Shown here one piece after another: positions 2 to 21,177 of a DNA stretch of 21,818 nt (positions are counted from its first letter, which is position 1; the number at the start of each line of letters is the position of its first letter). Under the pieces are notes generated by a model. It did not search any database and was not told the origin of the DNA. It was given only the letters and a program-made list of their open reading frames with translations. The position numbers and the translations under genes are program-made. The stretch spans positions 1 through 21,818 of the IMG/VR virus record IMGVR_UViG_3300044608_000075, one strand, 5' to 3'. This stretch comes from a virus.

Positions 2-3000
2 CGATCAATCTTCCGTCCGGACGAGACGAAGCTAGATAAAGCCAAAGGACTTGCGGATGCAGGTCTTTCTCTTTTTGGTGCGTTAGTACACGGTGTTCCC
101 GCCCAGTTCATGGGGAAGATGGGGCCTGAGTTCCAAGCCAAGAGATTCCGTCCTCCGCAAACACCTGCGGGTGAAAGATACTTCGATGTTGCTGCCGAGG
201 CTTTAGGAAAGGTTGCAGAAGCCTTCCCGATGCAGCCTACAGCCTTCACCTCCCCTGCAAACATCCTAGCGGGTCCTGCTGTCGCTCAGGCGGGTGCTAA
301 AGCAGCAGACGTTAATGCCATGGCTCAGAGGGCTTTACAGGCCGCTGGAGGCCGTCTAGAGAAGGCTGTCGAGAAGCAGGTCTACAGCACGATGGAAAAG
401 GGTGGGTTACCTGCTGAGATCCTTCAGGGGATGACGCAAGGGACGCAGAGTTTCATGGTCCCCCAAAGGGTCGAAGCGCCCCGTAATGAGATGAAACTGT
501 ACAGCCCTGCTGAAGAAGCGGCGTTGAATCTTCAAAGAGGTCAAGGAAGGGGCGAAGGCTTCCTGAGTGATCTACGAAAAGCCGGTGTTAAGGATGAGGA
601 GTTGGAATACACCGGACTGAAAGATTTCCTTGCTGGAAAGCAGAATGTCAGCAAGAAAGAGATTCAGGACTACTTGGCGGAAAACAAGGTACAGCTAGGT
701 GAAGTTCAGTTAGGCCACAGAACTCGATCTTATGAGGGTTTAACTAATCAAATAGACGAGTTGCAAAACAAGATCATTTCGGCTCAAGAAGATTTCCAAA
801 ACAGTGGCTATCTGTTTAGAGAAATTCGTGATGACAAGATGTTGAATGAGTTGCCATTTGATTGGCAATTAAAGTACGACAAGATTGTCAACATGAAAGA
901 AATGTTGGAAAAGTTAGAGAACCAAAGGTATGACCTTCCTAAAGGCGAGCCAACCAGACACTCCCAATGGACCCTTCCCGGTGGCGAGAACTACCGAGAG
1001 ATTCTGCTGACGTTGCCTTCGGATAGCATGACCACAGATCAAATAGCGCAAAAGTTGTTTGGTAAGCAAATGCGGTTTTTGTCGGAAGCGGAAAAAGATG
1101 AGGTTGTTCAAGAGTCTCGTAGATTGTTTGAGAATAGAACAGATTACCGCTCCTCCCACTGGGATCAACCTAACGTCCTAGCTCATCTGCGAGTCAATGA
1201 CCGAGTAGATGCAGACGGAAAGAAGATGCTATTGATTGAGGAGATTCAATCAGACTGGCATCAGGCGGGGAGGGAGAAAGGTTACGCAAGCAAGTCGGGT
1301 CAACTTCCAGCGGGATGGGAAGTAGTTGAGGTGCCCAAATACGGGTATCGCGGTGGTCCGCAAATCGGCACCGAGTTCATGGTGTTTGACCGATCAAAGA
1401 CACAAGTTGGTTTTGCAAGCCCAACAAGAGAAGGGGCTATTGCTAACGCGACAGGTTCAAGTTCTCTTGGCGTCCCCGACGCCCCATTCAAAGAAGACTG
1501 GTATCAACTAGTATTAAAGAGAGCCTTACAAGAGGCTGTAGACAAGGGATACGACAGGGTTGGTATCACCACAGGCAAAAGGCAGATAGATCGCTATACA
1601 GACGCTTTGAGGGCGAATGTAGACGCTATTGAGTATGAGCCGTTCAAAACTGATGCTGGCGAGATTCGATACGAAGTAGTAGGGGTGAAGAATGGCAAGC
1701 CTGTGGTTGAGTTGGATGATCTGTCATACAAAGACTTGCAAAAAAAGGTAGGCAAAGAGATCGCCGAAAAGATTCGCGCCAATGCTGGCGAAAGTCTTGC
1801 AGCGGATAGGCCGATGCGTCCTGATTGGATGCGGTTGTCAGCAGACAATCTATCTATCGGCGGCGAGGGGATGAAGAAGTATTACGACGAGATCTACCCC
1901 GGCTTCCTAAACAAGTACGGCAAGAAGTTCGATGCTAAGGTTGGGGATACTGCTTTACAAACAAAGGGAGAATGGCCGTTTCCAATAGAGATTGCTAGTG
2001 ACGGTAAGCAGTATTGGCTAAGAAGCAAAGACCCAAGCAGAAGCGATGCAGCAACTGTAGACGTATCGAAAAGATTTGACAGTTATGGAGATGCCGATAA
2101 AGCTAGAGATAAGTTATATGCTGGCTTTGATGAGCCTGTCCGTTACATCGACATTACTCCCAAGATGAAAGAGGCTCTATCTAAGGGCCAACCGATGTTC
2201 AAGGAAGGTGGGTTGGTATCTAACACCGACACCATCAAAGCCAGACTGATCGAACAAGGGATGCCAGAAGACAAGGCATTCATGCAAGCCCTGAAGTTAG
2301 CTAATGAAAAGCAGATGGCAGACGGTGAGTCACCGGATTTGCAAGAAGCGGCAACAATGATGACCTTGCCACAAGATGCCAAAAACATTCCATTGTCAAC
2401 CTTCGGTAAAATGTTACTAGACATCCCCGCGGGTCTTGGCAAGGGGGCGGTTCAGGGAACTATTGGACTTCCGGGCGATGTTATTTCAGTAACGAGAGGT
2501 GTTGGTTCGGCAATCTCTCCAGATCCTGAAGAAAGCCGGATTGATGCGTTTCTGCGAGGCATGAAGAAACGAACAGTGTTACCAACAACTGAAGACGTAA
2601 GAAGGTTTTTTGACCAAGGCTTGAACATCCCACTGGTTCCTGTAAGTGAAACAGATGAAATTAGGCGACAGTCTGCAAACATTTCAGAAACAATTGGAGA
2701 GTTATTTGGCGGCGGCAAAACCGCCATGGATATTGGAAAAGCCGTTGCAAGGACAAATGTTCCTGCGAACATATCAAGAAACATTGATGTTCCAAGGCAA
2801 CTAAATGAACCATTGGCCGTTGAAGAACCGCTTGCAGTTAACGCCAGATCCGGTGCCTTACCGGGTCAACAACGTATTACATCTGCAAAATCTGAGCCAG
2901 CCATTGACGACGGGGCCGGAGCTGTTGAATCCGTACAATTTGTCAAACTTCCAGACGGAAGATTTGCCACTAGCACCGCTTTTCAACAAGCCAGAAATGT

Positions 3001-3946
3001 AGCCGTTGGATTTGATCAGGCATCTACGCCCGAACAGGCGGCACATATTACGGCGGGTCTTCGCAAATCACCACAAGAACAATTGGTTGCGGTTGTGCTT
3101 GACGAAAACGACCGGCCCATACAAATTATCAGGCATACGATTGGACTGGCTTCGCAAACATCAGCGGAGCCGTTTTCCTTGTTGGGTGCAATCGCCAACA
3201 CGCCTAAAGCAAAAAGTTTTTGGATAAGCCATAATCATCCAAGCGGCAACCCGGAACTGTCGTCGGCGGACAGAAACCTAGCAAATGCAATTAACAATAT
3301 ATCGCGGGGAACGGGAATTGAAATGCGCGGTATTCTTGCAATTGGAAAGTCTAAGTTTGCCGCATATTCGCCAGATGGAACAATTGATATTGCTAACAAC
3401 AACATTCCTGCTGCGGCGCGAACTAAATCAATAGATATGGTGGAGCGAACCTTTCGCAAAGCAAATTTATTGGATTCAACAAAAGTAGAAAGCCCAACAC
3501 AAGCAAAAGATATAGCTCAAAAAATTGCTGGCGACGAAACAGGGTTGGTATTGTTTAATGCCGCGAGGCAACCTGTTGCGTTTATTCCATTGACAAATAT
3601 AAATGTTGGGACGTTGCGTCAAACAGGTGTGGCTAAACAACTTTTAGGCTCTCTGGAAAGAGCCAACGCTACGGCAACCATGTATGTTTCAAAATCCAAA
3701 CCAAACATGGCAGAGCTTTCTAATCTGGAAAGAATGCTTCAGCAGGCCGGGTCGCCCATGTTTGATGCGCTAGTTGGCGCTAATCGAGAGTCTTTACTTA
3801 TGACGGATGCGCTTCCAAGACAGTCCATGGATTTTAGATCTGTGTTTCCAATAACAGGCGCGGCGATGGCAGGATTGGGGGATGACACTACCAACCCCGA
3901 ATTAAGCAAAGCTAAAGGTGGCCTTGCCGCCATGAACAGGAAATAA
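2..3946 (+). CDS. Polyvalent-type phage protein with RadC-like JAMM/JAB domain (5' end outside window)
   Basis: The reading frame stays open to the left edge, so the first in-window ATG (110) is probably not the start; at least 1314 residues are visible. Residues below count from that ATG. Residues ~348-700 resemble a domain of phage large polyvalent proteins, with the motifs IEEIQSDWHQAGREKGY, WYQLVLKRAL, GITTGKRQ and the closing ITPKMKEALSKGQP. Residues ~770-870 hold a Gly-rich helix (GLGKGAVQGTIGLPGDV) followed by LPTTEDV, a pairing I recall from phage polyvalent/internal proteins. Residues ~940-1100 form a RadC-like JAB domain with a complete JAMM signature: E990, H1041-x-H1043, S1051 and D1054. 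Such proteins are thought to be packaged and delivered with DNA to act against host defences. Peptidase activity and packaging here are inference. Charged di-glycine motifs lie at residues 96-100, 698-702 and at the C-terminus (KAKGGL). The stop is 1 nt before the portal start. Confidence 0.85.
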   Translation, partial: RSIFRPDETKLDKAKGLADAGLSLFGALVHGVPAQFMGKMGPEFQAKRFRPPQTPAGERYFDVAAEALGKVAEAFPMQPTAFTSPANILAGPAVAQAGAKAADVNAMAQRALQAAGGRLEKAVEKQVYSTMEKGGLPAEILQGMTQGTQSFMVPQRVEAPRNEMKLYSPAEEAALNLQRGQGRGEGFLSDLRKAGVKDEELEYTGLKDFLAGKQNVSKKEIQDYLAENKVQLGEVQLGHRTRSYEGLTNQIDELQNKIISAQEDFQNSGYLFREIRDDKMLNELPFDWQLKYDKIVNMKEMLEKLENQRYDLPKGEPTRHSQWTLPGGENYREILLTLPSDSMTTDQIAQKLFGKQMRFLSEAEKDEVVQESRRLFENRTDYRSSHWDQPNVLAHLRVNDRVDADGKKMLLIEEIQSDWHQAGREKGYASKSGQLPAGWEVVEVPKYGYRGGPQIGTEFMVFDRSKTQVGFASPTREGAIANATGSSSLGVPDAPFKEDWYQLVLKRALQEAVDKGYDRVGITTGKRQIDRYTDALRANVDAIEYEPFKTDAGEIRYEVVGVKNGKPVVELDDLSYKDLQKKVGKEIAEKIRANAGESLAADRPMRPDWMRLSADNLSIGGEGMKKYYDEIYPGFLNKYGKKFDAKVGDTALQTKGEWPFPIEIASDGKQYWLRSKDPSRSDAATVDVSKRFDSYGDADKARDKLYAGFDEPVRYIDITPKMKEALSKGQPMFKEGGLVSNTDTIKARLIEQGMPEDKAFMQALKLANEKQMADGESPDLQEAATMMTLPQDAKNIPLSTFGKMLLDIPAGLGKGAVQGTIGLPGDVISVTRGVGSAISPDPEESRIDAFLRGMKKRTVLPTTEDVRRFFDQGLNIPLVPVSETDEIRRQSANISETIGELFGGGKTAMDIGKAVARTNVPANISRNIDVPRQLNEPLAVEEPLAVNARSGALPGQQRITSAKSEPAIDDGAGAVESVQFVKLPDGRFATSTAFQQARNVAVGFDQASTPEQAAHITAGLRKSPQEQLVAVVLDENDRPIQIIRHTIGLASQTSAEPFSLLGAIANTPKAKSFWISHNHPSGNPELSSADRNLANAINNISRGTGIEMRGILAIGKSKFAAYSPDGTIDIANNNIPAAARTKSIDMVERTFRKANLLDSTKVESPTQAKDIAQKIAGDETGLVLFNAARQPVAFIPLTNINVGTLRQTGVAKQLLGSLERANATATMYVSKSKPNMAELSNLERMLQQAGSPMFDALVGANRESLLMTDALPRQSMDFRSVFPITGAAMAGLGDDTTNPELSKAKGGLAAMNRK

Positions 3947-3947
3947 G

Positions 3948-6470
3948 ATGGCAACCGAATTCCCCATCGAGCAGGACTATGGAAGAAGTGTTCCGGGCCT
4001 CGCTCAAGGCGATCTGCTCCGGCAGGAACCAGAACCAGAGTTGGATATCAATCTCTCTGAATCCGAGATCGAAGAGCTTCCTGATGGCTCCGCTGTTGTC
4101 ACGCTCCCCGAAGGTCCGATAGAGAACCCAGACTTCTATGAGAATCTGGCTGAATCTGCCGACTCATTGGAGGTTGCAGGCTTTGCTCTGCGGTACATCG
4201 AGCTGATCGAGAAGGACAAAGACGCAAGGAAACAGCGGGACAAGCAGTACGAAGAGGGGATCAGACGTACCGGATTGGGGAATGACGCTCCCGGAGGCGC
4301 TTCGTTTAACGGTGCATCTAAAGTCGTGCATCCTGTAATGGCTGAAGGATGCGTAGATTTCGCTTCCAGAGCCATTAAAGAACTGTTTCCTCCTGATGGG
4401 CCGACCCGGACGAAGATTCTGGGGGAGACCTCTAAGGAAAAAACAGAGGTTGCGGATCGTAAACGCGACTTCATGAACTGGCAGTTGACCGAACAGATCC
4501 CAGAGTTCTCGGATGAGTTGGAGCAGATGCTCACTCAACTGCCTCTTGGAGGTAGTCAGTACCTAAAACTCTGGTATGACGAGCGTCAGAAGAGGCCTTG
4601 TGCGGAGTTTCTGCCGATTGACAACGTGATTCTGCCGTTTGCGGCGACGAACTTCTACAACAGTCAGCGGGTCACGGAAGTTCACGACATTTCCAACTAC
4701 GAATACAAGCAACGAATCCGTTCTGGCTTGTATCGGGATACGTCATACATTCGTGCAACGATGGCTCCTGAGCCTACAGGCCCACAAAAGGCCAATGACA
4801 AGGTAGAGGGAAGGTCAGATAACGACAACGAAGACGGTGTACGGCGTGTTTACCACGTTTATACATGGCTGGAACTGGAAAGTGATAGCTATACGAAGGG
4901 AGATCTAGCGCCTTACATCCTGATGATTGACGAACTGGAGACGGAAGTCGTCGGTTTGTACCGAAATTGGGAGGAAGGCGAGGAAACGATGACGAAACTC
5001 GATTGGATTGTCGAGTTTAAGTTCATTCCTTGGCGTGGTGCTTACGCTATTGGCCTTCCGCACCTGATTGGAGGGCTTTCTGCGGCCCTTACAGGCTCTC
5101 TGAGGGCACTTTTGGACTCTGCCCACATCAACAATGCAGCAACGATGCTGAAACTCAAGGGAGCGAAGCTGTCGGGGCAGTCTCAGCAGGTCGAAGTGAC
5201 CCAAGTTGCCGAGTTGGAAGCAGCTCCGGGGGTAGATGACATTCGGAAAATTGCGATGCCGATGCCATTTAACCCCCCGAGTCCGGTTTTGTTTCAACTT
5301 TTGGGGTTCCTGACGACCGCTGCTAAGGGGGTTGTAACGACAGCAGAGGAAAAGATCGCAGATGTGACTGCTAATGCTCCTGTGGGGACTACACAAGCCC
5401 TTATTGAACAGGGAGCGGCGGTCTTTTCGAGTATTCACGCGAGGCTTCACAAGAGTCAGACGAGGGTTCTGAAGATTCTGCAACGGATCAACCGTTGGTA
5501 TCTAGATGACATGGCTAGATCCGACGATATGGTTGATTTAGACATTAAGAGGGAAGACTTTGCAAAAGTATCGGACGTTGTTCCTGTCAGTGATCCTCAC
5601 ATCTTCTCTGAAACTCAGCGAATGGCCCAATCTCAAGCGGTCATGTCAATCGCAGAGAAGAACCCGGACCTCTTTAATCGAAGAGTGGTCATATCACGCT
5701 TCCTGAAGCAGCTTAAAGTACCGGCGATCAATGAACTGATGACCGATATGCCGGGGCCTCAGAAGCAGGATCCTGCTAATGAGAACGTAGCCATGAGCAT
5801 TGGTCAGTCTGCCTTTGCTTACCCTGAACAGGACCATCTGGGGCATATTCAGGCGCATTTGGACTATGCAAAGAACCCGGTATTGGGTGGGAATCCGTTG
5901 ATTGCTCCGAGCTTCCTTCCGAAAGCGATGGAGCACATCAAACAGCACATAGCTTTGTGGTATCTGAACCGTATGGAAGGCTATATTCATCAGTCTTTGG
6001 GTCAGAAGTTGGAGGATTACGAGCTAATCACCGATCCCAAGCCTGTAGACAAGATGTTTGGGGCGGCTTCTCAGCACGTTGACATGGATGCTCAGGAAAC
6101 CCTGCAAGGGATCATGCCGATCATTCAACAGATGGTCCAGCAGGCGCAACAGTTCAAGCCGAAGCCTGATTTGACGCCTGACGGACAGGTTCTGCTACAG
6201 ACGAGCATGGCTGAGACTCAAAGAAGGACTGAGCGTGACAAGGCAGAACTCCAGCTTAAAGGGCAGGAGATGCAGCAGAAACTTGAACTTCAGATGCTGG
6301 AGCTACAACAGAAACAGCAAATGGAGATGGAAGATTTGCAGTTGAGAATGGCGATTGCAGTTGGAGATCAGGAAACCAAGGAGCGTATAGAAACCGCCAG
6401 ATTGACAAGAGACGCTGCTAGGTTGAAACTAGATCAAGATAAAACAATTATTGATTACACAATCCAATAG
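3948..6470 (+). CDS. Portal (head-tail connector) protein
   Basis: This 840-aa protein would form the dodecameric ring at the capsid vertex through which DNA is packaged and ejected. The core (about residues 60-650) matches the portal family of uncultured aquatic podovirus-like phages: a GASFNGASKVVHPV segment, AEGCVDFASRAIKELFPP, and a GTTQALIEQG...SSIHARLHKSQ stretch near 475-505. The C-terminus (about 752-835) is a Gln/Glu/Lys-rich coiled coil, longer than in minimal portals. The N-terminal 55 residues are acidic and contain DGSAVVTLPE (46-55), a motif repeated in the scaffold. The start is supported by AGGA about 8 nt upstream inside the preceding gene's end, and by 1-nt spacing from its stop, which suggests coupled translation. 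The family assignment rests on recognised motifs; no search was run. Confidence 0.85.
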   Translation: MATEFPIEQDYGRSVPGLAQGDLLRQEPEPELDINLSESEIEELPDGSAVVTLPEGPIENPDFYENLAESADSLEVAGFALRYIELIEKDKDARKQRDKQYEEGIRRTGLGNDAPGGASFNGASKVVHPVMAEGCVDFASRAIKELFPPDGPTRTKILGETSKEKTEVADRKRDFMNWQLTEQIPEFSDELEQMLTQLPLGGSQYLKLWYDERQKRPCAEFLPIDNVILPFAATNFYNSQRVTEVHDISNYEYKQRIRSGLYRDTSYIRATMAPEPTGPQKANDKVEGRSDNDNEDGVRRVYHVYTWLELESDSYTKGDLAPYILMIDELETEVVGLYRNWEEGEETMTKLDWIVEFKFIPWRGAYAIGLPHLIGGLSAALTGSLRALLDSAHINNAATMLKLKGAKLSGQSQQVEVTQVAELEAAPGVDDIRKIAMPMPFNPPSPVLFQLLGFLTTAAKGVVTTAEEKIADVTANAPVGTTQALIEQGAAVFSSIHARLHKSQTRVLKILQRINRWYLDDMARSDDMVDLDIKREDFAKVSDVVPVSDPHIFSETQRMAQSQAVMSIAEKNPDLFNRRVVISRFLKQLKVPAINELMTDMPGPQKQDPANENVAMSIGQSAFAYPEQDHLGHIQAHLDYAKNPVLGGNPLIAPSFLPKAMEHIKQHIALWYLNRMEGYIHQSLGQKLEDYELITDPKPVDKMFGAASQHVDMDAQETLQGIMPIIQQMVQQAQQFKPKPDLTPDGQVLLQTSMAETQRRTERDKAELQLKGQEMQQKLELQMLELQQKQQMEMEDLQLRMAIAVGDQETKERIETARLTRDAARLKLDQDKTIIDYTIQ

Positions 6471-6479
6471 GAGTTGATG

Positions 6480-6614
6480 ATGAGCGACAAAGACCAAAAG
6501 AGTGTGAATGTTCCACAGCATAAAAGGCTTGCAATGGGCGTCCCGCTGAACGGACAGTCCATGGAACCCAAACAACCGCAAAAACAGGAGGCAAAGCTGC
6601 TTAAACGCAAATGA
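6480..6614 (+). CDS. Small conserved-position phage protein, 44 aa
   Basis: A 44-residue, Lys/Gln-rich, basic protein of unknown function (begins MSDKDQ, ends LLKRK). It fills the gap between the portal stop and the next gene. The AGGAG at 6469-6473 overlaps the portal stop codon TAG. It lies 3 nt from an ATG at 6477 and 6 nt from the ATG at 6480, so the second was chosen; the first would add one Met. The stop overlaps the next start as ATGA (6611-6614), typical of coupled phage genes. The gene call rests on the ribosome-binding site, the overlap and filling of the gap. It has no recognisable domain. Confidence 0.6.
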   Translation: MSDKDQKSVNVPQHKRLAMGVPLNGQSMEPKQPQKQEAKLLKRK

Positions 6615-6796
6615 AGACAGTCAGTGATCTGATCGGCGGTATCAAAGCCTCACAGAGTGAAATATCTCTGGCCCTTGCGCTGGGAAAAGCGCAGACATGG
6701 GAGGCGTATCACCGCATGGTTGGAACATATCAAGGATTACAGGAATCGCTTGATATTCTCAATAACCTTTTAAGAGACGAAGATGAACATGAATGA
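6611..6796 (+). CDS. Small helical phage protein, 61 aa
   Basis: A 61-residue, mostly helical-looking acidic protein (MKTVSDLIGGIKAS... ending RDEDEHE) of unknown function. It starts in an ATGA overlap with the 44-aa gene and overlaps the co-chaperonin start by 14 nt, so it sits firmly inside one co-translated cassette. An AGGAGG at 6586-6591 is 19 nt from the start, too far for normal use, so reinitiation from the upstream stop is more likely. Small proteins of this size and type commonly follow portal genes in related uncultured phages; a head-assembly role is only a guess by position. Confidence 0.7.
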   Translation: MKTVSDLIGGIKASQSEISLALALGKAQTWEAYHRMVGTYQGLQESLDILNNLLRDEDEHE

Positions 6797-7217
6797 GCCG
6801 GTAGCTTCTAACGAAGCTGAGCTTGCTTGGGCATTCCCGAGTGTAAATCCCGGTGCTACTCCTCTTGGTGGGCGGATTCTCGTACAACTGCGCCGCACCA
6901 AAAAGAAAACCCAGAGTGGTTTGATTCTGGTTTCAGAGACGAAAGAGGCAGAAAAGTGGCAAAACATGATTGCTAAAGTCATAGCGATTGGTCCACTAGC
7001 TTATCGACATCGGGACAGCATGAATCCATGGCCGGAAGGTTCATGGTGTGTTGCTGGAGACTTCATTCGGGTTCCCAAGTGGGGCGGGGATCGTTGGGAA
7101 GTCAAAGTACCCGGAGAAAAAGAGGATGAAGAGCCAGTGCTCTTTGCAATCTTTAACGATCACGAAGTCATTGCAAAAGTGACGACTGATCCCTTGTCGA
7201 TGCGAGCATTTGTATGA
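6783..7217 (+). CDS. GroES-like (Cpn10) co-chaperonin
   Basis: A 144-aa protein resembling the Cpn10 family, which caps the host GroEL chamber during folding. Evidence: GGRILVQLRR (29-38) matches the first strand of GroES; KTQSGLILVSE (42-52) resembles the GroEL-binding mobile loop, where GroES has a GGIIL-like core; AKVIAIGP (64-71) matches the following strand; and AGDFIRVPKWGGDRW (91-105) with FAIFNDHEVIAKV (121-133) matches the closing strands. At 144 residues it is longer than bacterial GroES (about 95), as phage versions often are. T4 gp31 is the classic phage example, needed to fold the major capsid protein; its place between portal and scaffold fits that role. AAGAG at 6772-6776 supports this start, and the stop overlaps the scaffold start (ATGA). 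Confidence 0.8.
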   Translation: MNMNEPVASNEAELAWAFPSVNPGATPLGGRILVQLRRTKKKTQSGLILVSETKEAEKWQNMIAKVIAIGPLAYRHRDSMNPWPEGSWCVAGDFIRVPKWGGDRWEVKVPGEKEDEEPVLFAIFNDHEVIAKVTTDPLSMRAFV

Positions 7218-8140
7218 ACGATCCCAAAGTAAAAGAAGAGCTAAATATCAAAGAGGAAGTTGACGGTTCAGCCGTTGTAGAACTTCCTGAAGATTTGACC
7301 CCAAAGGAAGAAGAAGACGCGCCTGTAGAGAAGGCCGAAGGCGGCGAAGTTGATGATGAAGATCATCCAGACGATACCGAGGCTGTACGGTCTGCCAGAC
7401 GAGCTAGGCGCAGGGCCAAGAAGGATTTAATCAAGCGCACGAACGAAGAGAAGGATCGTCGTCTTGAATTGCTCCAGAGGCAGAATCAAGACCTTATGGA
7501 GCGTCTGTCTGTAGTAGAGAAGAAAACTCACAGTTCAGACTTGGCAAGGTTAGACAAGGCTATTGAGGACGAAGAACTGCGTCTTCAGTATGCCATGGCA
7601 AAACTCAGTGATGCGGGAAATCGTTCTAACGGCGCTGAGATGGCTAAAGCGCAAGAGCTTTGGTATGAAACTCGGGGCCGTGTAGAGGCGTTGAGGCGAG
7701 CCAAAGAGCAGGCGGCAAAATCTCAGACGCAGGAATCGGGCGCGGTAAATCCTCAACTGATGCGTCATGCAAATCAGTGGATGGAAACAAACCCGTGGTA
7801 TGACCCTGCCGGTAATGACGAAGATAGTCAGATTGCGAAGATCATTGACCAACGACTTCATAAAGAAGGGTGGGATCCTAATACGGAAGAGTATTGGGAC
7901 GAATTAAATGATCGCTTGCAAAAACGACTCCCACATAGGTACAATCAGTCAGACGAGCCAAGGAGGAAGCCCAGAAGTGTAGTAACGGGATCTGGTCGTG
8001 AATCAGCACCGCGAGGAGGGGCGCAATTTGTATTGAGTCCCGAGCAAGTCCGAGCGATGAAGGATGCGGGATTTTGGGAAGACCCAGAGAAACGCGCCAA
8101 AATGATTAAACGATACGCCCAAGACGCACGACGGAGCTAA
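7214..8140 (+). CDS. Capsid scaffolding protein
   Basis: A 308-aa, highly charged protein with scaffold architecture. It has an acidic N-terminus (about 1-60, many Glu/Asp), a long coiled-coil middle (about 60-170, starting with an Arg/Lys-rich stretch SARRARRRAKKDLIKR) and a basic helical C-terminus (KRAKMIKRYAQDARRS), the kind of tail scaffolds use to bind the inner face of the capsid protein. Residues 17-26 are DGSAVVELPE, nearly identical to a motif in the portal N-terminus. It lies two genes before the major capsid protein, the usual position for a scaffold. The start overlaps the co-chaperonin stop as ATGA, so translation is probably coupled. The function is inferred from composition, order and motifs and not from a catalytic signature. 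Confidence 0.75.
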   Translation: MNDPKVKEELNIKEEVDGSAVVELPEDLTPKEEEDAPVEKAEGGEVDDEDHPDDTEAVRSARRARRRAKKDLIKRTNEEKDRRLELLQRQNQDLMERLSVVEKKTHSSDLARLDKAIEDEELRLQYAMAKLSDAGNRSNGAEMAKAQELWYETRGRVEALRRAKEQAAKSQTQESGAVNPQLMRHANQWMETNPWYDPAGNDEDSQIAKIIDQRLHKEGWDPNTEEYWDELNDRLQKRLPHRYNQSDEPRRKPRSVVTGSGRESAPRGGAQFVLSPEQVRAMKDAGFWEDPEKRAKMIKRYAQDARRS

Positions 8141-9314: not shown

Positions 9315-9331
9315 GGAGGGCTAGATCATGG
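9312..9331 (+). promoter_or_regulatory. Strong ribosome-binding site of the major capsid gene, overlapping the upstream stop
   Basis: TAAGGAGG: the TAA stop of the decoration-like gene is the first part of the sequence, and AAGGAGG (9313-9319) is close to a full anti-16S match, 8 nt before the ATG at 9328. This is the strongest such site in the window, which fits the high demand for capsid protein. Confidence 0.7.
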
Positions 9332-10242
9332 CAGCCCCGATGCGTAGTACCGATTTTCGGTCAATTGTCGAACCTATCCTCAACGAGTGCTTTGATGGTG
9401 TTTACGATCAGCGCACTGACGAGTGGAGCCGAGTGTTCCGCGAGTCTGAGGGTATTCCCCGTAACTACCACGAAGAACCCGTTCTGTACGGTTTTGGCGC
9501 GGCTCCGCAGCTTCCTGATGGCACTCCGGTGACCTATCAGCAGGGTGGAGTGCTGTTCCTCAAGCGTTACGTCTACAAGGTCTATGGTCTGGCCTTTGCT
9601 CTGACGAAAGTGCTTGTTGAGGACGGCGACCATATCCGTATCGGTCAGGTTTACGCCCGTCATCTGGCTCAATCGCTGATTGAGACCAAAGAGACGCTGA
9701 GTGCCAATGTTCTGAACCGCGCCTTCAACGCCTCATATCCCGGCGGTGACGGTGTTGCTCTGAACAGCAACGCTCATCCTATCGTTAACGGTACGTTCAG
9801 CAACCTTCTGACGACTGCTGCGGTTCTCTCGCAGACTTCGCTGGAACAGATGCTGATCCAGATCCGTCAAGCGGTAGACAACAACGGCAAGAAGATTCGT
9901 CTGGTGCCCCGTCAGTTGGTTGTGGCTCCGGGCAACGTCTTCCAAGCCGAGGTTCTCCTGAAGTCCGTCCTGCGTTCGGGTAACGCTAACAACGACATCA
10001 ACCCGATCAAGTCAATTGGCTTGCTCGACGAAGGTGCCGCTGTTCTGTCGCGTTTGACTTCCCCGACTGCATGGTGGGTTCAGACCGATGCGCCCGAAGG
10101 CATGAAACTCCTCATGCGCCGCCGCCTTGAGAAAACCATGGAAGGTGACTTTGAAACCGACACCATGCGCTACAAGGCGACAGAGCGTTACGACGTCGGG
10201 TTCACGGATCCACGCGCTATTTACGGCACTCCGGGGGCATGA
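9328..10242 (+). CDS. Major capsid protein (HK97-type fold inferred)
   Basis: A 304-aa protein that would form the icosahedral shell. Family signals: the region KETLSANVLNRAFN followed by GGDGVALNSNAHP (129-141) and NGTFSNL, then the helix SLEQMLIQIRQAVDNNGKK and the LVPRQLVVAPGN strand, followed by VLRSGNANNDINPI. This order (ANVLNRAF, GGDG-x-x-L-x-S-x-AHP, LVVP-like strand) is shared by Mu gpT-like and related major capsid proteins. The length is usual for a capsid protein without a long N-terminal delta domain, in keeping with a separate scaffold gene. A strong AAGGAGG supports the start. It follows portal, scaffold and decoration genes in standard order, and a stem-loop follows the gene. 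Confidence 0.85.
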   Translation: MAAPMRSTDFRSIVEPILNECFDGVYDQRTDEWSRVFRESEGIPRNYHEEPVLYGFGAAPQLPDGTPVTYQQGGVLFLKRYVYKVYGLAFALTKVLVEDGDHIRIGQVYARHLAQSLIETKETLSANVLNRAFNASYPGGDGVALNSNAHPIVNGTFSNLLTTAAVLSQTSLEQMLIQIRQAVDNNGKKIRLVPRQLVVAPGNVFQAEVLLKSVLRSGNANNDINPIKSIGLLDEGAAVLSRLTSPTAWWVQTDAPEGMKLLMRRRLEKTMEGDFETDTMRYKATERYDVGFTDPRAIYGTPGA

Positions 10243-11417: not shown

Positions 11418-12470
11418 ATGTTCAAGCCGATGGTTAAGATGATGACCACCGAGCCTTCTATTGAGCTAAAACTCAAAAAGGGCGGCAAGGTCAAGAAGAT
11501 GCAAGCCGGCGGTATGCCCGGCATGGGGACCACCACAGCAGCAATGCCTGCTCGTGGTGGAATGGCTCCGGCCATGGCTCCTCGGCGTCCTTCGATGGCT
11601 GCTCGTCGTCGTGCGATGATGGCTATGCCTGCTGCTGCGGCTCCGGCTGCTCCGGTAGGTATGGCGGGTCGCATGATGAAAGAGGGCGGGAAGGCCATGT
11701 CCAAGGAGATGAAGGAACACGCTTCTAAACCTGCTAGTAAGGCTCACAAGGGTCTGAAAACGGGTGGTGTAGTGATGGGCCAAGGCGGTTACAAAGACGG
11801 CGGCATCATTAACACGGAAGGTCAAGGCGGCAAGTACCGCAACACCAAGATGGACACTGCAAAGCCTGATCATTCGCCCGCGAAAACGGGTGGGGTGAAG
11901 ATGGGTAATGCGGGTGGGTATAAGACGGGCGGTGTAGCAAAGGCTAACGCTGGCGGTTACAAGAAAGGTGGCATGGCAAAAAAAGCCTACGCTACGGGGG
12001 GAGTTGTTGATAGCGGTGCCCCCGTAGCGATGCCCCAAGGCCGCAAAAAGCCCTCTGCTCCTGTGAGCATTAATGAGTTGTCAGGAACCTTCAAAAAAGG
12101 TGGTTCTGTAACTCCTGCTGAAGCTCGTCTACTAAAAGCGAACAAAGCGGAGAATGCAACTGCAATGCGGCAGGCGAAGGCTTACAGTAATGAGGTCTAC
12201 AGCAAGTACGGTCGTAAGATGAAAGAGGGTGGTCTATCGGAAGCTGAAAAGCGAGCGATGGAACAAGACCGTCTGACTGTTAAAGATCCTCAAGCAACAG
12301 CCGCACAAGCGCGTCGAGGTGTTGAGGATGCTCTGAACCCTCTTGGTATAGTGAAAGAGCTATACCAGAAGGGTAAGGATTACTTTAAAAAGCCGGGGGC
12401 GGTTACCAAGACTGAAAAGTCTGTCACGGTAATGCCAGAGAAGAAGCGCGGCGGTCTAGCGAAGTGCTGA
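11418..12470 (+). CDS. Basic di-glycine-repeat virion-module protein, 350 aa
   Basis: No known fold or function. The protein is strongly basic and low in complexity. Residues ~20-90 are Met/Ala/Arg-rich (RRPSMAARRRAMMAMPAAAA), ~113-196 hold tandem units of the type KTGG[VI] ... GGYKxGG, and the last ~140 residues look helical. I count 17 Gly-Gly pairs, ten in the context K-x-GG. The C-terminus is KKRGGLAKC. Similar K-x-GG proteins are familiar from uncultured aquatic phages, but I know of no tested function. Possibilities are nucleic-acid binding inside the head, a virion scaffold, or a substrate of a diglycine-specific protease; all are inference. AAGGAG at 11406-11411, 6 nt before the ATG, fixes the start. 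Hairpins flank the gene on both sides. Confidence 0.75.
   Translation: MFKPMVKMMTTEPSIELKLKKGGKVKKMQAGGMPGMGTTTAAMPARGGMAPAMAPRRPSMAARRRAMMAMPAAAAPAAPVGMAGRMMKEGGKAMSKEMKEHASKPASKAHKGLKTGGVVMGQGGYKDGGIINTEGQGGKYRNTKMDTAKPDHSPAKTGGVKMGNAGGYKTGGVAKANAGGYKKGGMAKKAYATGGVVDSGAPVAMPQGRKKPSAPVSINELSGTFKKGGSVTPAEARLLKANKAENATAMRQAKAYSNEVYSKYGRKMKEGGLSEAEKRAMEQDRLTVKDPQATAAQARRGVEDALNPLGIVKELYQKGKDYFKKPGAVTKTEKSVTVMPEKKRGGLAKC
11757..12005 (+). repeat. In-frame repeats encoding K-x-GG / GGY units
   Basis: Imperfect in-frame repeats inside the di-glycine protein: three copies of K-T-G-G-V, two of N-A-G-G-Y-K and related K-D-G-G-I and K-K-G-G-M units. Codons vary between copies (acg ggt ggt, acg ggt ggg, acg ggc ggt), so the repeat is conserved as peptide more than as DNA. 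Confidence 0.7.
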
Positions 12471-13816: not shown

Positions 13817-14890
13817 ATGGCCTATTCAGGAACAGTCGGCACAACCGTAATCAACACTCAGAAGCTCATAGATCACGGTGCTAGGCGCTGTGGGAAGTTA
13901 GCTGAAGAGTTGACCGCAGAACAGATTCTCACTGCAAAAGAGAGTCTGTTTTTTCTTTTGTCAAACCTGATCAACATTGGCATCCAGTATTGGGCCATTG
14001 AGAAAAAGGTTTACGGTCTGAAAGCCGATCAGTATATCTACAAACTTCCAATTGGAGGTAACGACGTACTGAATGTAATGTACCGGCAGATGAACAGGCC
14101 GACTCCTAACGATACTGGGGGGTACACCAGTAGCGCCGGAGGTGTCGTAGAGAACGCTTTTGACGGCAACATTAATACTTTTTGTACGCAGACCTCTGCA
14201 AACGGCAACATTGCAGTAGATTACGGGACTGACAATCCTGTTTATTTGGGTTCTATTGGTGTTTTGCCGGGTGTTTCGGGCACGTTTTCGGTCATTTACG
14301 AGTATTCCGCAGATGGAATTACTTGGAGTACGTTGTATGACCCCGGTGCAGAGGTTTGGGTAAACAACGAATGGATCTGGCACGACATTGAACCCGGTCA
14401 AACGGTGCAGTATTACCGTATGAGAATGACCGGAGGGGGGACTATCAGTGTCAGGGAGCTGTTTTTCGGTAACAACTCAACCGAAATCCCGATGGCTAGG
14501 TTGAATCGGGACGATTACACCAGTTTGCCGAACAAGAACTTCACTGCAAACCAGCCGTATCAGTATTGGTTCAACAGGACGATCCCACAGGCAGAGATCA
14601 CCTTGTGGCCGGTTCCAAGTGATCCCTTCATTCAGATGACTGTTTGGTACTCCAGACAGATCATGGACGTTGGAGCCTTGTCAGGAGAGCTAGAAATCCC
14701 TCAGAGGTGGTATCTGGCAATTCAGAATATGTTGGCTCATCAGATGGCTCTAGAACTGCCGGGGGTTGATCTTGCTAGGGCGCAGTATCTTGAGGGTCAA
14801 GCAGAGAAGTATCTGACTCTTGCTGAGAATGAAGAGCGCGACAAGTCTCCGATTTACTTGGCCCCGAACATATCTGTCTATTCAAGGTAG
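13817..14890 (+). CDS. Head-tail adaptor (P22 gp4/T7 gp11-like) with inserted discoidin-like domain
   Basis: A 357-aa protein. The outer parts fit the podovirus adaptor family that docks under the portal: an N-terminal helical segment (LIDHGARRCGKLAEELTAEQ, then LFFLLSNLINIGIQYWAIEK) and a C-terminal part with LPNKNFTANQPYQYWFNR, ITLWPVPSDPF, WYSRQIMDVG and EIPQRWYLAIQNMLAHQMAL. Inserted at about residues 98-219 is an F5/8 type C (discoidin) like domain: ENAFDGNINTF, IAVDYG, YEYSADGITW and a closing YYRMRMTGGGTISVRELFF. Such domains often bind sugars in other proteins. The start abuts the upstream stop, with a GGGGTGG stretch just before it. The adaptor role is from family pattern and gene order; the ligand of the insert is unknown. 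Confidence 0.75.
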   Translation: MAYSGTVGTTVINTQKLIDHGARRCGKLAEELTAEQILTAKESLFFLLSNLINIGIQYWAIEKKVYGLKADQYIYKLPIGGNDVLNVMYRQMNRPTPNDTGGYTSSAGGVVENAFDGNINTFCTQTSANGNIAVDYGTDNPVYLGSIGVLPGVSGTFSVIYEYSADGITWSTLYDPGAEVWVNNEWIWHDIEPGQTVQYYRMRMTGGGTISVRELFFGNNSTEIPMARLNRDDYTSLPNKNFTANQPYQYWFNRTIPQAEITLWPVPSDPFIQMTVWYSRQIMDVGALSGELEIPQRWYLAIQNMLAHQMALELPGVDLARAQYLEGQAEKYLTLAENEERDKSPIYLAPNISVYSR

Positions 14891-20500: not shown

Positions 20501-20695
20501 AAGGTTAGGGACGAAGCAGGAAACGTCACCACACTGTCTCCGCACAACTTCGACCTCATCCCCGAAGGCCCGTCAGAGGAAATGGCGTGGTCTTACTACT
20601 CTGAGCGTGACGGCAAGCGCATCAACGTCGATATGCTCAAAGCCATCCGTTTGCTGGAAAAACTCAGCGGCGAAAAACTGGTGCATTTTGCATGA
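17540..20695 (+). CDS. Tail fibre protein 2 (1051 aa)
   Basis: The N-terminus (FTPIQLYHSTTTTAVPVNTN, LVDGELAINITDGKLFYKD) is a standard phage fibre anchor, followed by GGSTTQVQYNNAGALAGSAN. Residues 104-147 repeat the GGT-x-Q-x-SY ... GDI-x-YA module of fibre 1. The distal half holds about six beads of the form SGNLGIGTTP / KVGIGTDAP / SGNLLLGGTV at roughly residues 483, 549, 623, 697, 835 and 939, typical of shaft-like fibre regions. The C-terminus (DEAGNVTTLSPHNFD, then ERDGKRINVDMLKAIRLLEK) ends in a helix likely to form a trimeric coiled coil; no S74 autoprotease domain was seen. AAGGA at 17529-17533, overlapping the fibre 1 stop, fixes the start. Third-position GC rises from 24/50 (17852-18001) to 33/50 (18239-18388), which hints at a mosaic joint. 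Confidence 0.8.
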   Translation: MAATNFTPIQLYHSTTTTAVPVNTNLVDGELAINITDGKLFYKDNSGTVQVIATKATGTIGGSTTQVQYNNAGALAGSANFTFNGTTATINTLNLTNALGAAYGGTAQSSYTQGDIVYATGATTLAKLGIGLNTYILTSNGTIPGWSAPSSISVSTATNLAGGAAGSVPYQSGAGATTFLSIGTTNRVLTSSGTAPQWVTALTGLTSVSSNFDTLGGSGFTLPAVLSATAPAKLYINTSTVTDGSSAIGATNALGAITSFDATTVAASNVNVTYTNLATLVINAAPTAGTNVTITNPYALYVAAGASYFASTVTVNGTVNATTLDLTNLEVTNIKAKDGTASITLADSTGVATFSANPILNAGTANGVAFLNASKVLTTGSALTFDGSRFSVIGSGTLEVAQFGTSTNNTPSIGIYSDGSIRAKLRASSAETALLTQGNLPLLFGVNDTEKMRLESATGGVGALGIGYSTLTSVGDSGLAVLGKVGIGTDAPTTKLYVTASVASTAIAGFFNTDTANGNGVYIKAGGANAGKYALAVDNAASASLLYLESSGNLGIGTTPSNRLHVVYGGSTVGAQFTASAGYAQMQLTAAGSNQSAYYTFNVNGTGKGIVQVNAVDALTLDSSGNVSVGTSSVNAKLNVVTALSGTYGSAGIWLSDNSTTSMLMNNTASGVSSIWASGALTFGSGGNNNTERARIDASGNLGLGVTPSPWGGAKAFEAGLVGNYFIGSTAASYTSIGTASYYNGSNWVYARSTAASKYELLNDTHAWYIAPSGTANTTTITNGVSYTIITSGNQTAFGAANNNVGTSFTATSSGTLSSGTVSQNISFTQAMTLANNGTLLLGTTTDSLASAGNFTLGSSKPGGETDALVYNPSNTAASRARVWISNGGTSAGSANLLFTSGLAGTRLVMGVDSTDGDKFKIGNGYSVGSGTTYVLLDTSGNLLLGGTVSPASATKSFSLFNGTVPTGSVTDGCVLYTEDVSSSSELKVRDEAGNVTTLSPHNFDLIPEGPSEEMAWSYYSERDGKRINVDMLKAIRLLEKLSGEKLVHFA

Positions 20696-21177
20696 TTACC
20701 CAACAAGACGTAGCAAACTGCTTTGAGTACCGTGACGGGTATTTGTATTGGAAAGGCGTAAGCCATCCAAACAAGCAATATCTGGTTGGGCAAGAGGTTG
20801 GCTCAACGCACAAAACCGGCTATCGCCATGTCACATGGATGAACAAAATCTGGAAAGTTCATCGTCTGATCTTTGTTCTGCATCACGGCTATTCGCCCAA
20901 AGAAATAGACCACATCAATGGCGACCGCGCAGATAACCGTATTGAGAACCTGCGTGCGGTTACGAGAAGCGAAAACCAGTGCAACCGACCGACATTGACC
21001 AGCAACACATCAGGCTATCCCGGCGTGTCTTGGCACAAAAAGAACCAAGCGTGGGTTGTTAGAGTCATGAAGAACGGTAAATCACACCTAATTGGCTACT
21101 TCAAAGAGTTGGAGTTGGCAGGTTTGGTGGCCGCAGAAGCAAGATCAATCTATCACGGCGTCTACGCCAAAGTTTAA
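20692..21177 (+). CDS. HNH endonuclease with AP2-like DNA-binding domain (homing type)
   Basis: A 161-aa free-standing nuclease. The HNH core reads KVHRLIFVLHHGYSPKEIDH, then INGDRADNRIENLRAV; likely catalytic and metal residues are H57, H73 and N82, with a further SENQCNR motif typical of the family. Residues ~104-157 (NTSGYPGVSWHKKNQAW, RSIYHGVYA) match the AP2-like domain that often follows HNH in phage homing endonucleases and binds DNA. Such genes spread by cutting alleles that lack them. The start overlaps the fibre 2 stop (ATGA), and the stop is part of the next gene's ribosome site (TAAGGAG), so it is neatly fitted between two structural genes. No intron was seen. The target site is unknown. 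Confidence 0.9.
   Translation: MITQQDVANCFEYRDGYLYWKGVSHPNKQYLVGQEVGSTHKTGYRHVTWMNKIWKVHRLIFVLHHGYSPKEIDHINGDRADNRIENLRAVTRSENQCNRPTLTSNTSGYPGVSWHKKNQAWVVRVMKNGKSHLIGYFKELELAGLVAAEARSIYHGVYAKV

Follow-up and report, generated by a model that had tools for sequence, protein, structure and literature searches.

The window analyzed here, the whole 21,818-base stretch of an IMG/VR virus record, encodes a portal protein, a GroES-like co-chaperonin, a scaffold-like protein, and a major capsid protein in one head gene cluster (Table 1). The 840-aa product is a Caudoviricetes portal of the SU10/N4-like fold by both profile (PHROG 1216, E=3e-17) and structure, as its best Foldseek matches were the portals of cyanophage A4, N4, and SU10, with E down to 5.6e-14, and the matches to the A4, N4, SU10, and T7 portals had E values of 1e-10 or better; a PDB sequence search with the portal found nothing. 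The gene for the 308-aa protein lies between those for the portal and the major capsid protein, and AlphaFold2 predicts for its product the acidic, helical coiled-coil architecture of a scaffold, namely an N-terminal hairpin, an acidic disordered linker, a long coiled coil, and a small C-terminal domain. From this gene position and predicted architecture, we infer that the protein is the scaffold. It matched neither a named scaffold family nor a solved scaffold fold: the only profile match was PHROG 28737 ("unknown function"), Pfam gave no match, and Foldseek gave no PDB fold match with E <0.9. By analogy with P22, the C-terminal domain is a candidate for the capsid-protein-binding end.

Table 1. 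Features of the portal, co-chaperonin, scaffold, and capsid protein genes in the window
Feature	Position	Strand	Basis
Portal protein, 840 aa, SU10/N4-like fold	3948..6470	+	PHROG 1216 and Foldseek
Portal N-terminal beta-hairpin (predicted), residues 40-53; strands 40-43 and 49-52; turn LPDGS	4065..4106	+	AlphaFold2
Portal peptide DGSAVVTLPE, residues 46-55	4083..4112	+	Direct translation
Another conserved portal-tail box, residues 56-68 (GPxxxxDFYxNLA), immediately ahead of the first wing helix	4113..4151	+	Column identities
First long portal helix (predicted), residues 73-106	4164..4265	+	AlphaFold2; putative counterpart of the SU10 wing helix
Phage GroES-like co-chaperonin, 144 aa	6783..7217	+	Pfam PF00166, E=3e-7; PHROG 3188
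Scaffold-like protein, 308 aa	7214..8140	+	Gene position and AlphaFold2 architecture; PHROG 28737 "unknown function"; putative scaffold role
Scaffold N-terminal beta-hairpin (predicted), residues 11-24; strands 11-14 and 20-23; turn EVDGS	7244..7285	+	AlphaFold2
Scaffold peptide DGSAVVELPE, residues 17-26	7262..7291	+	Direct translation
Scaffold C-terminal strand-helix-helix domain (predicted), residues 271-307 (FVLSPEQVRAMK...)	8024..8134	+	AlphaFold2 and conserved columns
Major capsid protein, 304 aa, proposed as the most likely common partner	9328..10242	+	Pfam PF25209, E=1.8e-12

Further downstream, positions 11418 to 12470 encode a 350-aa protein that is rich in Gly and Lys, contains repeats such as GGYKTGGVAKANAGGYKKGG, and matches nothing in Pfam. 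In a 357-aa protein (13817 to 14890), residues 106 to 210 weakly match an F5/F8 type C (discoidin-like) domain and residues 210 to 340 the SU10 adaptor family, both below cutoff; the protein may be a tail adaptor that has acquired a sugar-binding domain. At 20692 to 21177, a gene that begins at the 3' end of the gene for a 1,051-aa protein encodes an HNH endonuclease with a below-cutoff AP2-domain match, which resembles homing endonucleases.

Direct translation bore out the observation, made in the initial annotation, that the N termini of the portal and the scaffold carry a common peptide, identical at 9 of 10 residues and written with different codons at 7 of the 9 identical ones, the same codon being used only for one Val and the final Glu. 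Among the 18 proteins of the window, this is the sole pair of 10-mers from any two proteins with at least 9 of 10 identities, and 0.003 matches of that grade are expected by chance (300 residue shuffles); the match is not a chance event. The surrounding tails, which had been described as probably disordered, contain stretches with an AlphaFold2 pLDDT of <50 in both proteins (residues 1 to 35 and 55 to 59 of the portal and residues 1 to 8 and 27 to 44 of the scaffold). A stretch of the capsid protein, LPDGTPVTY, also resembles the motif, its likeness being limited to DG[ST].

Considering the hairpin-face geometry and the conserved positions, the shared element is not the 10-mer but [ILV]xExxDGS[AV]xVx[LM], a unit that is longer than, and different from, the peptide noticed at first, the final PE of which is not conserved in most portals. 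AlphaFold2 models run separately for the two proteins, on 80 portals and 83 scaffolds, place a beta-hairpin in identical register in both, with strands at positions -6 to -3 and +3 to +6 from the Asp. The confidence of the hairpins is modest (block pLDDT of about 50 to 66), yet mostly higher than that of the adjoining tails; in the portal, the hairpin block reaches about 64, with flanking blocks at 47 and 50. D46 and G47 of the portal are invariant in 80 portals that range from 27 to 87% identity. Positions -5, -3, +3, +5, and +7 make up one face of the hairpin and are better conserved than the other face; with the Glu at -3 set aside, the hydrophobic fraction of this conserved face is 0.84 to 1.0, versus 0.22 to 0.37 on the opposite one. 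The shared element is thus predicted to be an amphipathic beta-hairpin whose conserved residues lie on one hydrophobic face.

We followed the element through more than 400 loci, collected in five IMG/VR portal scans and one GTDB scan, and the phages that carry the hairpin in both proteins form a freshwater group. In the window clade, with portals 71 to 100% identical, one copy of the motif occurs in all 81 portal N termini and all 69 scaffold N termini examined. The sister clade around MW202545, whose portal is about 61% identical to that of the window, has two tandem portal copies in 77 of 81 cases and one scaffold copy in 63 of 63. Intermediate lineages from bacterial bins (e.g., L360, L362, L363, and L381) likewise have the motif in both proteins. 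Within sister-clade genomes, the first portal copy is the one closest to the scaffold copy (74% identical residues; L083 and L277-L354), and the second resembles the window-type portal copy.

Farther away, the portals keep the form DG[SG][AV]xVx[L/I/F] in 24 of 25 relatives of Caulobacter phage RW, 71 of 76 of DSL-LC04, and 75 of 78 of Pelagibacter phage HTVC027P, and a matching peptide is found in none of the respective scaffold tails (0/19, 0/62, and 0/28), which show no likeness to the portal element above shuffled controls. The proposal that the motif should be paired within a genome therefore held in the window clade (69/69 loci with both N termini, one copy per protein) and in the sister clade (62/63 with two tandem portal copies and one scaffold copy), but failed in the RW, DSL, and 027P groups, where the portal hairpin occurs without the scaffold peptide. 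The sharing is, on these sequences, lineage-restricted. Since the distant clades have the portal hairpin without a scaffold match, parsimony makes the portal element an old one and suggests that the scaffold gained its copy in the lineage from which the window and sister clades both descend.

In 30 long contigs of 44 to 58 kb, a degenerate form of the pattern gave one or two matches in the portal and a single one in the scaffold, with about 7 other scattered matches against 6 for a reversed control pattern; the fetched loci had the motif in no recurrent protein besides these two, so that it is essentially confined to the portal and scaffold genes. Parallel peptides in phage psg01 (EEGGAEIAFD/EEEGAEINLD) and in the DSL group (ATVE[IL]) were suggestive by eye and were discarded, as they did not beat shuffles, in the latter case for most DSL loci. 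Pelagiphage-type scaffolds have a near-invariant N-terminal element of their own, VDIDTSGPAMDVDVPE (N termini of L172-L251), which could also form a hairpin and is unlike the portal's in sequence. Distant portal relatives also lie in long bacterial contigs of Salinisphaera hydrothermalis C41B8 (L386, 168 kb) and a Parvibaculum sp. (L387, 94 kb), perhaps as prophages of an otherwise lytic-looking group.

The claim that selection acts on the peptide also stood. In the window clade, identity is 0.8 to 1.0 at the key positions of the motif (E, D, G, S, V, L, and P) and mostly 0.1 to 0.4 in the scaffold tail outside it, and codon agreement at identical motif residues does not exceed that elsewhere in the gene. 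Because synonymous sites are near saturation around a peptide that remains a conserved island in fast-changing tails, the constraint must lie on the peptide. Within genomes, the portal and scaffold share codons at a fraction of 0.40, versus 0.37 expected from codon usage, which rules out recent duplication or gene conversion for the present sequences, and synonymous variation at the gene background rules out a DNA or RNA element. The element has the character of a short linear motif, a conserved island in the disordered tails of two unrelated proteins, selected as a peptide. Alternation between Ala and Val at +3 appeared associated between portal and scaffold in a naive Fisher test (P = 0.012); with phylogeny taken into account, the covariation was not significant (LR 4.66, P = 0.32), and the two copies show no correlated evolution at this position beyond their shared ancestry.

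Two possible functions can be set aside. A JAMM protein was named as a possible partner, but among loci with more than 5.5 kb of upstream sequence, it occurred in 1 of the 53 from the window clade and none of the 63 from the sister clade, and we reject it since nearly all relatives lack it. At its end, the very large protein encoded upstream of the portal (positions 2 to 3946) has a RadC-like JAB domain that hardly any relatives possess; its N-terminal part recurs in 12 of the 53 loci of the window clade and 39 of the 63 of the sister clade. T4-type prohead-protease sites read LxE, and the final LPE of the 10-mer is out as a protease site, as it is not conserved in portals. An LxE end of the type found in the T4 capsid targeting sequence (CTS) is not conserved in the window-clade portals, where position +9 is mostly Thr; in the second portal copy of the sister clade, it is mostly Asp. 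The capsid cluster showed no prohead protease.

By inference, a common docking signal for the portal and the scaffold is the best reading of the element, and the data suggest that both hairpins use the same socket during shell assembly. Specifically, we propose, as the leading explanation but with slightly less than even confidence, that both occupy a single site in the procapsid, most likely on the inner face of the major capsid protein close to the portal. In this scenario, the portal and scaffold hairpins would insert into one site on a common partner within the procapsid, with many copies of the capsid-protein site taking scaffold hairpins and those around the unique vertex taking portal hairpins. 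With the hairpins of both proteins on the same site, the capsid protein would treat the portal as part of the scaffold layer, and once the scaffold leaves, the portal hairpins alone would remain. A fuller version, in which the capsid protein recognizes scaffold and portal through one hairpin, the portal imitating the scaffold or vice versa, and the sister lineage has doubled the portal copies, is one that we hold tentatively and consider somewhat doubtful.

The geometry of related portals is consistent with a capsid-protein site. The first wing helix of the SU10 portal (residues 8 to 44) lines the inner face of the capsid (PMC9509320); helix 73-106 of the window portal is, by analogy, its probable equivalent, which would put the hairpin, about 20 residues ahead, inside the shell and beside the capsid protein. 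Beta-type docking of a scaffold has a precedent in HK97, where the scaffold domain extends the P-domain sheet of the capsid protein by one strand (PMC10275583). The genes for the co-chaperonin and the capsid protein are present throughout the relatives, and a PDB sequence search with the capsid protein returned one insignificant histone match only. Against a capsid-protein site, the scaffold may, like that of P22, already bind the capsid through its C-terminal domain, and the lineage-restricted sharing, the Ala and Val states that do not coevolve, and the modest confidence of the hairpins argue in the same direction.

The main rival places the socket on the portal ring itself, in the wing or the cleft between subunits, with the scaffold hairpin mimicking the portal's own. 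It draws on P22, whose scaffold tail occupies the cleft between portal wings and makes hydrophobic contacts there through its C-loop (PMC12005531, PMC13386823). The portal hairpin would then fill the socket in the mature ring, and the scaffold hairpin would occupy it during ring assembly and later be displaced. A portal hairpin that is older and more widespread, with D46 and G47 invariant in 80 divergent portals, agrees with this explanation, as does a scaffold copy in a sub-lineage only, as expected of a mimic. However, the portal monomer model gives the hairpin only moderate confidence, and the P22 contact is made by the C-terminal part of the scaffold rather than its N terminus, and we consider a socket on the portal unlikely. 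We judge it equally unlikely that the two hairpins have no partner in common and serve separate roles, as a generic DG-turn element or a fragment once copied between neighboring genes. DG turns with alternating hydrophobic residues are common hairpin phrases, and the restriction of the similarity to one lineage and the lack of correlated substitution at +3 would fit such an origin; yet the same 13-position pattern persists in both proteins with synonymous sites near saturation, and it is nearly absent elsewhere in the 30 contigs.

Two further possibilities seem remote. The hairpins might pair along their edges, linking scaffold to portal and one scaffold to another with no third protein, as their identical amphipathic character in both proteins and the two portal copies of the sister clade could indicate, but the conserved acidic residues of the hairpin and its surroundings would be mutually repulsive, and it is one face, not a strand edge, that is conserved; such pairing is very improbable. 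Least probable of all is a partner elsewhere in the head cluster, either the GroES-like co-chaperonin, acting with host GroEL, or the 177-aa protein encoded downstream of the scaffold. Both genes are found in this cluster in all clades examined, but these include clades whose scaffolds lack the motif, and we know of no precedent for the recognition of such hairpins by GroES.

How exactly one vertex of the shell receives a portal rather than a capsid pentamer is a long-standing question, and a capsid protein that recognizes portal and scaffold through one hairpin would, if true, be a new way for tailed phages to incorporate the portal. A short, deletable peptide present in both proteins makes one answer directly testable, and it would also give a transferable tag with which to load proteins into procapsids of this kind. 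A limited literature search found no report of a portal and a scaffold that share a peptide.

One of the closest parallels is the CTS of T4, a short conserved peptide carried by otherwise diverse internal head proteins, which it targets to the precursor scaffolding core (PMC3012670). Here, however, the sharers are a portal and a scaffold-like protein, the element is a predicted hairpin, and the LxE-like end is not conserved in the portal. The scaffold (delta) domain of HK97 is likewise a beta-type scaffold element (PMC10275583), and the binding mode proposed here resembles that of HK97, but the delta domain is fused to the capsid protein, C-terminal to the coiled coil, and the HK97 portal is not known to share it. 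P22 gp8 also places a scaffold tail in hydrophobic contact with the portal, in the wing cleft (PMC12005531, PMC13386823), but does so with a C-terminal loop, and we found no report of a sequence common to the P22 scaffold and portal. The window has a below-cutoff match to an SU10-type adaptor, and its portal has the same fold as the SU10/N4-like portals, from which it differs in that some 70 additional residues precede the first long helix and bear the hairpin.
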